From contig NSJX01000007.1 of NCBI GenBank assembly GCA_002286715.1, positions 413,234 to 477,233 on the forward strand: a stretch of 64,000 nt of DNA, in the 5' to 3' direction. The notes beneath the pieces were generated by a model. That model worked only from the letters and a program-made list of their open reading frames with translations. It was not told the origin of the DNA and did no database searches. Shown in pieces: positions 35,630-39,370 of the stretch (its first letter is position 1; every line of letters starts with the position of its first letter). The position numbers were made by a program, and so were the translations under genes. This stretch comes from Dentipellis sp. KUC8613. Taxonomy: Eukaryota; Basidiomycota; Agaricomycetes; Russulales; Hericiaceae.

Positions 35630-37485
35630 CTAAGCATCAACCTTCTCCCCAACACTCCGACCATCCACTTGTGCCGCCGCCCCTCCTATCCAGTGCAGCA
35701 CGCTATACCGATGGTTCACGCCCTCGAGCCGCGGGACGCACGCGGCGCCGCCACAGCCGCCGGTAAGGCCCATCGCGTGGACGTACACGATCTCCTTGAC
35801 GCGCGAGTGCAGCAGCGCCATGGCGCACATGATGCAGGGCTCGTGCGTCGTGAAGAGCGTGCGGCCTGTGAGGAGGTAGTTCTGCCCGTTGCGTGCATTC
35901 GAGGGCGGTTCCTGCGCGGGTGATGAGGGGACGGGCGTCGATGTCGATGTCGATGTCGATGTGGGGGCTGAGGTTGGGATTGGTGCGGCGTCGTGGGGAG
36001 GCGACGCGGGAGGCGCGCGGTGGTCGGCGACCTTGCGGATGACGTTGAGGACGGAGTGGCGAAGCGGGTGATGCGTGGATGTGCGCGTGTCGTGCGCGAG
36101 GAACGATGGCTGGCTGGGGTCATCGAGCGGTGCGGGGACATAGGACATGATGGGAAGCTGCTCCTACATGATTATCCCGTTGAACGCGCAAGGGGGAGGG
36201 ACACAAGCTCACCTCGCCGCTGCCGCTGTCCCTGACGCGCTGTGCCTTGCGCATGACAGTATTGACGGCGCCGCGCGCCCAGCGCAGCTTGCCGTGCGAC
36301 CATGGCTCAGGCTCGTATTTGCGCCGCGGGGCGAACACGGTCGGCCAGAGTGCGTTTTTGAGCTCGAGGGACGTTTTGGTGAGTGCGGCGAAGCGCGGCA
36401 CGGGAATGATGTAGGGCGCTGAGAGCGCGATGTCGACGTCGACGGAGGGGGAGGGGATGGGGTCGGTGGGGGAGGAGGGGGCGATGAGGAGGGTGGACCC
36501 GGTGGGCGTTTTGCGGATGCGTTTGAGGTGCGCGAGGGCGGGGGTGTCGAAGCCCGAGGTTTTTAACCATCTGAGTACGGGTGAGGGGGGCAGAGATGTC
36601 ATGAGGTGGAGGGGCTTACTTGAGCATTGTGGTTGTATGTCGGGGGTCAGGAATGTCGACTGCCCATGCGTCCACTGATCAGAGTGCAAGTTTACGATCC
36701 TGACTTGAAGTGAAAGAAGATGGAGACGAACAGACCTGTAAAGATAGCCTCTGGTGTTTCTTCCTCCACTTCATCTGGGGTGTTTCTTATTCTGACGAAC
36801 GGCAGCAAGTCTTCAGGTACAATCTCATCAGAGTCCCCATCTACGGATTCCTCGTATAGATCTCCGTCCACTGCAGAATCCATGGACGTCAGGCCTCCCC
36901 ATCCATCATCCGGCTCATTTTCCGCTACTGGAGAACCAGCCGCAGCAGCATCGATATCGTCAAACCATAATTTGTGGCCATAGAAGATACAGAGCTCCTC
37001 CCCGGGCTCAATTGCACGGCTCGTGATGTACCGTATAGAGTCTGTTGCAGACTCAATAATGTACGACACATTTGGGGTATTCGAATGGTTGAACAGGGAT
37101 CCTATTAGAGGTAGTTTGAATGCTGGGAGACTTTTCGCGGAAAATCGAGGGCATACCTAGGCCCAGCGCCAGTGCCATGCGGCCATCTCGCCACTTGAAC
37201 GTAAAATGATCGAGTACGGTGTACTTCCCATGCTGCTCGTACTCGGCTGCAGAGAAGAGTAGCACGGGGCTGATCTCTACCACCGTCTGTGCGGGTATGC
37301 GGCGGGAGGCTGAATTGCACGGCGATTAGGGGGCGTTTGAGGAATCTATGAATGGAGGAGAACACACCAAACACGGCCCTGCCTTTTCCCTCGACATACC
37401 TGATTTCACAGCCGGTACTGTTGAGGTGCTGAGGACTTGGTTTTGTGAAGGGGGCGGGGGCTTCGAGGGAAGTGTGGTCTGGCAT
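35630..37485 (-). CDS. TAD3: SET domain fused to tRNA adenosine deaminase subunit TAD3
   Basis: Model: complement of 35630..36163, 36213..36570, 36620..36674, 36736..37101, 37157..37309, 37368..37485; 527 aa in one frame. Residues about 25-130 form a short SET domain: EGKGRAVFASRRIPA, LFNHSNTPNVSY and RAIEPGEELCIFYG. After an acidic linker the same exon (36736..37101) runs into the TAD3 N-terminus LPFVRIRN, and the next exon gives VDAWAVDIPDP and HLKRIRKTP. The deaminase fold has RHSVLNVIRK (Val where the active subunit has catalytic Glu) and EPCIMCAMALLHSRVKEIVY with GGCGG. TAD3 pairs with TAD2 to make inosine at tRNA position 34. A separate internal start for TAD3 (Met in exon 4 of the list) cannot be excluded. 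Confidence 0.85.
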
Positions 37486-37583
37486 AGCCACAAACGCGTC
37501 GATCTGCGACGCGCCTGAATTAGATCTCGACACGTCGACGCCGCGTCTTGGTCCCGTCCTCCTCCTCCTCCTCCTCCTTCTCC
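37486..37583. promoter_or_regulatory. Very short bidirectional promoter of SET-TAD3 and ALG7
   Basis: 98 bp between divergent ATGs at 37485 (minus) and 37584 (plus), with a CCT/CTC trinucleotide run (about 37558-37578) directly before the ALG7 start. No TATA box. Confidence 0.5.
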
Positions 37584-39370
37584 ATGCCCAACCCAATTGC
37601 CCCCAGACCACTCCCGTCTCTGCTCCTCCTCGCCCTCGTACCCGTCGCGTCCTGGTTCATCTGCAGGCCGCTCATTGACCCTGTACCGTCGCTGCCCGCA
37701 CTCCATATATCCTTTGGCCTGTCCATATTTGCATTCATCGCGACTCTCCGTCTCGTGCCTGCACTCGGGCCCACATTCATACATGCGAATTTGAAGGGGC
37801 GGGATCTGCTCAAGACTTACAGTAATCCCATGTATGTCCCCTCTCCGGGTGATCGGGCCCTGCTGACCCATGTCCATGTCCGTGTCCATGTCCGTGTTTA
37901 TCAGACCAGAAAGCCTCGGCCTCGTCTGCGCATCGATATATATCCTGATCCTTATAATCTTCATCCCCTTTGCGTTCTCGAGCATCTCCCTCAGTGCGTC
38001 GCCCCAGTATACCGTCCATGAGGGCATTATTATCAATGCGTTTCCGCATTACCAGGTACGTCTGTTCGCCACTTCTCAGGCGCGTGCTTATAGGTGGCGG
38101 CGAGCTAGCTCTCGGTCTACCTCTCATCCTTATTGTCGTTGCTCATCGCGACTCTGCTGGGCTTCTTGGACGATGTGTTTGACATCCGATGGAGGCACAA
38201 GCTGCCCATACCCATCATTGCCTCCATCCCCCTCCTGATGGTGTACTATGCTGAGCGCGGAAATACACACGTCGTGGTGCCCATACCACTTCGCCCTATA
38301 TTCGGGACCCTCCTGAATCTGGGTACGTATACTTCGTCGATAATCATTCCATCCTAACACAATGCACGTGTTTTCCAGGTCCAATATACTATCTGTACAT
38401 GTCACTTCTGTCTACGTTCTCCACGAACAGCATCAACATCCTTGCGGGGATCAATGGGTCCGAGGTGTCCCAGGCCCTCGTCATCGCGCTCTCCGTCGCG
38501 CTCAACGACCTACTGTATCTACCATGGCCAGCAGACTTCAGCATCCCGCTTCACCTGCTTGGCAACCCTGCGGAAGTTGAGGTTGGCGGCGTGTGGAGTG
38601 CGGGTATGGCGCATGGTAGTAAAGAGCTGGTGGAGAGGCACCTGTTTAGTTTGTACTTCATGCTGCCGCTCATCGGCGTGTGTGCAGGATTCCTCTATCA
38701 CAACTGGTGCGCGTTTGCACGTTCACGAACAAAGGAAGGCTTGCTGAACTGGTCTGGCCACAGGTATCCTGCAAGAGCGTTCCCAGGGGACACCCTGTGT
38801 TATGTGACGGGGATGGCATTCGCAGTCGTGGGCATCCAAGCGCACTTCTCAAAGACACTCCTGCTGTTCTTCATACCCCAGATATTCAACTTCCTGTTGT
38901 CGTGCCCACAACTCTTCGGCCTCGTCCCATGTCCGCGGCATCGTGTTCCTCGGTCAGTCGCCAACGTGACGGCACCTGAGTAATTGCTGACATCCGCCCA
39001 ACAGATTCGACCCAGACACCAGCCTGCTTCACCCGTCGAAGGCACTCTTCCTCAAGCCGCCGAAGAAGCTGACGGTCGTTGTGCTCCGCGCGCTGGCCTC
39101 GGTCGGCCTCACAGAGCTCACGGTGCACCCCGACACCGGCAGCATCCTAGAAGCGACGAATCTGACCATCCTGAACTTCCTGCTGCTTCGGATACGCCCC
39201 ATGACCGAAAAGAGGCTCGTCCAGGTGCTGATAGCGGTGCAGGTGCGTCCGCGTGGCCGCCCCGCATACCCCATACTCACGCCAAGATGTCATAGATCGC
39301 GGGGAGCGTTCTGGCCTTTACGGTGCGCTACGGCCTGGCGTATCTTGTATACGACGGCGACAGGCACTGA
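37584..39370 (+). CDS. ALG7: UDP-GlcNAc:dolichyl-phosphate GlcNAc-1-P transferase
   Basis: ER membrane enzyme of the first step of N-glycan precursor synthesis (tunicamycin target). Exons 37584..37831, 37905..38055, 38109..38322, 38379..38706, 38764..38952, 39005..39242, 39296..39370; 480 aa, usual length. About ten membrane helices, starting [14 protein letters not shown]. Catalytic and binding motifs: [33 protein letters not shown] (the Asp pair of the GPT family), [35 protein letters not shown] and [19 protein letters not shown]. Intron 1 (73 nt) has a GTCCATGTCCGT repeat near its 3' end. Confidence 0.95.

Follow-up and report, generated by a model that had tools for sequence, protein, structure and literature searches.

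A Set7-type SET domain joined to the tRNA deaminase subunit TAD3 in a single gene of Dentipellis and other Agaricomycetes

We analysed a window of 64,000 nucleotides from Dentipellis sp. KUC8613 (Hericiaceae, Russulales, Agaricomycetes; contig NSJX01000007.1, positions 413,234 to 477,233), in which one gene encodes both a SET methyltransferase-like domain and TAD3, a subunit of the tRNA deaminase that forms wobble inosine. The gene lies on the minus strand, running from 37485 to 35630, and the exon-intron model (coding region 35630..37485), assembled by eye from genomic DNA alone, comprises six exons specifying 527 residues and a stop codon, separated by five GT-AG introns of 58, 55, 61, 49 and 49 nucleotides. 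Exon 1 (37368..37485) contains the start codon, the N-terminus and the first SET strands (GKGRAVFA), and exon 2 (37157..37309) the middle of the SET domain (EISPVLLF to ALGL). Exon 3 (36736..37101) is the fusion exon: a single open frame holds the SET motifs NHSNTPN and GEELCIFYG, an acidic linker with a WGGL motif, and the start of TAD3 (LPFVRIRN), from residue 190. The following junction completes a valine codon, G plus TG, ahead of DAWAVDIPDP. The TAD3 N-lobe continues through exon 4 (36620..36674; VDAWAVDIPDP) and exon 5 (36213..36570; HLKRIRK to WPTVFAPRRK), and exon 6 (35630..36163) provides the pseudo-deaminase domain and the stop codon. An earlier note on this DNA had described the SET end and TAD3 start in one open exon, with a GTG junction leading into VDAWAVDIPDP; both statements hold, and re-derivation of the gene model revealed no error in its coordinates, junctions or quoted motifs. 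The public protein from the same strain (P0001, labelled ‘partial’, 368 residues) is identical to our model over residues 1-350, i.e., exons 1-5, and ends with 18 residues translated from intron 5, so that the deaminase end is absent from the public record.

The Pfam SET match spans residues 35-132 (36977..37383, minus strand, with introns 1 and 2 inside) and covers model positions 1-105 of 105, indicating a complete domain (5.4e-15; 56.1 bits against a cut-off of 22.4). The closest solved SET protein is Schizosaccharomyces pombe Set7 (5h6z), which is 54% identical to the SET half (E 1.1e-39, the next SET match being at 8e-8) and also gives the highest fold Z among the SET chains listed (17.5, followed by 15.0). 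The Dentipellis domain retains N95, H96, P100, N101 and Y131, which are S-adenosylmethionine (AdoMet)-binding or catalytic residues. Residue conservation was counted over 119 fused relatives, and SET is their best conserved segment: the mean commonest-residue frequency is 0.78, while the deaminase end reaches 0.71, the TAD3 N-lobe 0.61 and the linker 0.39. N95 is present in 119/119, H96 in 114/119 and Y131 in 117/119; the six proteins lacking the full set are those of four Lactarius species, Gloeopeniophorella (deviating at Y131 only) and Agrocybe pediades (at H96 only). With the full Pfam model covered, the strong likeness to Set7 and all three residues kept in 113/119, the earlier suspicion that this SET domain is short, lacks some usual motifs and may be non-catalytic is not supported for the family.

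Structure comparison identifies a TAD3/ADAT3 N-lobe and pseudo-deaminase fold in the C-terminal half, within which Pfam recognizes dCMP_cyt_deam_1 at residues 441-478 (1.1e-7, above the curated cut-off). The zinc ligands H386, C460 and C463 are present and V388 replaces the catalytic Glu: H386-S387-V388 (36050..36058, minus strand) aligns with H-A-V of mouse ADAT3, and the two cysteines belong to a PCIMC motif (residues 459-463; 35825..35839, minus strand). Both cysteines are found in 119/119 fused relatives and Glu at position 388 in 0/119. A separate TAD2 gene with HAE and PCIMC motifs, whose best PDB matches are to ADAT2 (4.1e-42), is located on contig C1. When the genome (34.1 Mb in 171 contigs) was searched, no second TAD3 or Set7-type SET emerged at E 0.01 among the best candidates scored, the sole other match (6.7e-5) being TAD2. 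Genome-wide totals are 14 SET and 4 PF00383 matches, with deaminase-family genes also on contigs C106 and C150. The sequence GGVKKPH occurs in histone H3 genes at three sites of the genome, and both K36 and K37 are accordingly present.

Between the two halves, the linker (residues 138-186; 36815..36961, minus strand) has low confidence in the predicted structure, with residues 144-171 under a predicted local distance difference test value of 50, and is thus predicted to be flexible; its W158 is kept in 98/119 fused relatives. That WGGL descends from the old C-terminus of Set7 is suggestive only: a profile gave at most 10/200 shuffles as high for 6 of the 20 tails taken as unfused (26 scored), a pattern chosen post hoc occurred in 9/40 tails against 4.2 by shuffling (26/1000 shuffles as high), and Trp alone in 15 against 12.3 (89/1000).

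The fusion extends well beyond Dentipellis. In the best 120 of the 384 homologues that passed the cut-off, both Pfam domains were detected in 118, the exceptions being P0001 and P0093, which bears out the proposed SET-TAD3 fusion. The named ones among those listed are all, as far as is known, Agaricomycetes of the orders Russulales, Polyporales, Gloeophyllales, Boletales, Agaricales and Hymenochaetales. The earlier note had regarded this as a non-standard TAD3 architecture, which is correct with respect to the solved yeast, mouse and trypanosome proteins but not for Agaricomycetes, where it is widespread. We also ran searches with TAD3 residues 279-527 (120 of 279 matches listed) and SET residues 20-153 (120 of 253 listed) as queries; these shortened queries, combined with a length filter, favour unfused proteins and are uninformative on how common unfused forms are. 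Among the listed SET-query matches, 22 short open reading frames, some of them near-copies of each other and one a Sistotremastrum gene model (P0245), continue without a frame change from the end of SET to the beginning of TAD3 (LPF or IPL). A twenty-third pattern match, P0344, was spurious and was dropped. Unspliced relatives have intron-like inserts at the intron sites of the Dentipellis gene, namely P0041 (introns 1 and 2) and P0136 (intron 3). Wolfiporia cocos has a second SET record (P0350), 52% identical to the query, whose longest contig is of the same size as that of the fused P0024; it is possibly a paralogue.

Stand-alone Set7 records among the matches listed come from Serendipita (Sebacinales), Cantharellus and Clavulina (Cantharellales), Meira, Schizosaccharomyces japonicus, Exophiala and many Mucoromycota. 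The longest contigs of the SET and TAD3 records differ in Clavulina (217,580 vs 806,932) and Hydnum (275,180 vs 528,465), and the two genes are therefore probably not neighbours in these fungi; in Botryobasidium the corresponding contigs are of the same size. In a SET tree of 49 hand-chosen rows, the 24 fused ones fall in one branch (96/81) together with two Auriculariales, one similar row and three others, with 19 rows outside. Owing to these six additional rows, the fused label needs two changes rather than one on this tree, with 0% of 200 bootstrap trees having one; constraining the fused domains to form one clade is not rejected (p-AU, approximately unbiased test, 0.48). Clathrus P0191, a model without the SET start, forms a long branch. 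By eye, the Set7 tails of the Auriculariales (Exidia and Auricularia) resemble the start of TAD3; a TAD3-start profile gave this resemblance no support, since 95/200 and 161/200 shuffles, and 163/200 for the similar P0257, reached the same score, although the tree places these rows among the fused SET domains. The test is noisy: Linnemannia and a Serendipita, both unfused, gave 0/200 and 2/200. A divergent Set7 lineage inside the fused branch consists of P0333, P0344 and P0330, two of the three having TAD3-like tails by eye; the same noisy test did not bear this out, P0333 and P0344 giving 65 and 190/200. The simplest reading is one origin within Agaricomycetes. The fusion most likely arose once, after the Sebacinales and Cantharellales had branched off. 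The idea that the gene records an old merger is supported by the two-domain homologues and by the grouping of all 24 fused SET domains, although their branch also includes six rows for which fusion is not established.

We consider it likely that this one gene produces a bifunctional protein, in which a Set7-type SET lysine methyltransferase and TAD3 are borne on a flexible acidic linker and act largely independently, and that the merger, most likely of single origin in Agaricomycetes, mainly fixes their co-expression and 1:1 amount. The sequence itself shows the fusion, the conservation of both halves, their intact motifs and their presence as single copies as far as searched. As in yeast and animals, the TAD3 half would pair with the separate catalytic TAD2 and bind tRNA, whose A34 would be edited to inosine. 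Lysine methylation would be the task of the SET half, with histone H3 K37 (H3K37) as the first candidate by analogy with S. pombe Set7; the title of Shen et al. (2019) names Set7 as an H3K37 methyltransferase and ties it to gametogenesis, and their abstract reportedly describes its dimerisation. On one polypeptide the two activities would proceed largely independently, with the merger mainly securing equal, joint production of both halves. Their mostly independent action is suggested by the occurrence of each alone in other fungi and by Lactarius, where one activity seems to be gone and the other retained. In the four Lactarius proteins (P0035, P0039, P0056 and P0076), Arg stands at position 96 in place of the NH histidine, His replaces the aromatic residue at 75 and the LWF end is missing, with Y131 lost too in one of them; their TAD3 zinc residues are intact and Pfam still recognizes their SET domain. 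SET catalysis has thus probably been lost naturally in these fused proteins.

Several observations weigh against such a bifunctional protein. The Dentipellis SET domain has A37 in its GRG motif, where 112/119 relatives have G, and F75, where 114/119 have Y; the fusion persists in Lactarius despite the lost SET residues; all five listed Amanita TAD3 models (P0178, P0180, P0181, P0184 and P0190) begin no earlier than the linker and give no SET match, reflecting either lineage loss or annotation error; and many further TAD3-alone models appear among the matches listed. The last of these raise the alternative that two adjacent genes were wrongly merged, with transcripts beginning inside exon 36736..37101 and SET and TAD3 made as separate proteins, the more so as a number of the TAD3-only models start in the linker. 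Those starts are, however, scattered; both parts share one exon here and in the 22 listed short reading frames; and seven TAD3-only models pair with a SET record having an equally sized longest contig, one of them, Botryobasidium, outside the fused branch. Furthermore, P0075 has 490 residues on a 1,593-base contig, with about 120 bases left over, and looks like one spliced transcript of the fused gene, unless its gene simply carries fewer introns. We read most TAD3-alone models as putative split gene models. On the two-domain homologues, the scattered starts and the read-through frames we reject an artefact of gene merging, and separate SET and TAD3 proteins are very improbable.

A second alternative accepts the fusion and supposes that the SET half is non-catalytic in Dentipellis, serving as a scaffold or representing a remnant in decay, which is also the suspicion for Lactarius. 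Residues A37 and F75 are uncommon and make this possible for the Dentipellis copy itself, and a loss of the Lactarius type exists within the same order. On the other hand, N95, H96, P100, N101 and Y131 are intact, F75 is shared with S. japonicus Set7, and identity to the Hericium protein is higher in the SET domain (82%) than in the TAD3 parts (60 and 71%); we regard a non-catalytic SET half as unlikely. Alternatively, the SET half might act on the editing complex, methylating TAD2, the TAD3 N-lobe or a bound ribonucleoprotein, or SET-SET dimers might pair two TAD2-TAD3 units, such that methylation or AdoMet supply would regulate wobble inosine. The reported dimerisation of Set7 and the single linked polypeptide of 118 of the 120 homologues listed agree with this, as does a precedent in Fusarium, where the TAD3 N-lobe docks the regulator Ame1 (PMC11087585). 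Conversely, Clavulina and Hydnum have Set7 and TAD3 as separate records, Lactarius lost the SET residues while those of TAD3 stayed, and the linker is predicted to be flexible; we regard action on the editing complex as unlikely. A coupled role of both halves is possible, in view of the Fusarium docking and of the tie of Set7 to gametogenesis, and would be more interesting than independence. In its fullest form, which we find unlikely, lysine methylation would be a built-in arm of the wobble-inosine enzyme in mushrooms: SET-SET pairing would join two TAD2-TAD3 units, and the fusion would bring the complex to chromatin or methylate it. A histone mark of sexual stages would in this way be connected to the decoding of tRNAs, and Lactarius would have lost methyl transfer and kept assembly. 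Returning to the preferred reading of two largely independent activities, SET activity would not be needed everywhere, since Lactarius lost the SET residues yet kept the fusion. Lactarius, and perhaps Amanita, offer natural experiments, with a SET half that seems to be defective or absent.

The downstream neighbour of the fusion gene is a convergent malic enzyme gene. On the other side lies a divergent gene of the glycosyltransferase-4 family, likely ALG7/GPT, at a distance of about 100 bp provided that it starts with the ATG at 37584; the two genes may share a promoter in 37486-37583.

Neither family is new, and database annotation already displays the two domains together; in searches of one open-access library aimed at the fusion, no paper listed describes the architecture in its title or abstract opening. 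Many orders of mushrooms thus combine, in a single protein, an enzyme resembling histone methyltransferases with a core subunit of tRNA editing that is essential in yeast. Because fused proteins often act in one pathway or need to be co-expressed, this offers a concrete, testable link from lysine methylation to decoding. Moreover, this one family is annotated variously as ‘Set7’, ‘TAD3’ and ‘cytidine deaminase-like’ in public records, and surveys of either family in mushrooms may consequently miscount.

S. pombe Set7 (5h6z, 5ww0) is a separate small protein, whereas the Set7-type SET domain here is the N-terminal part of TAD3, joined to it in one exon. The Dentipellis protein resembles TAD3/ADAT3 of yeast (7bv5), mouse (7nz7) and trypanosome (8aw3) in its N-lobe and pseudo-deaminase domain, its zinc ligands, its Val in place of the catalytic Glu and its separate TAD2, but has about 186 extra N-terminal residues, mostly the Set7-type SET domain. 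In the yeast structure, TAD3 binds tRNA and pairs with TAD2, as outlined in an excerpt of PMC7713142. A further parallel is the FgTad2-FgTad3-Ame1 mRNA editing complex of Fusarium graminearum, in which, as excerpted from PMC11087585, the TAD3 N-lobe is the docking site of the sexual-stage regulator Ame1; there too an additional function is docked on TAD3, during sexual development. In the same excerpt, Ame1 is a separate DUF726 protein, and FgTad3 is described with a tRNA-binding N-terminal domain and a deaminase domain, with no SET domain named, in contrast to the single polypeptide of Dentipellis.
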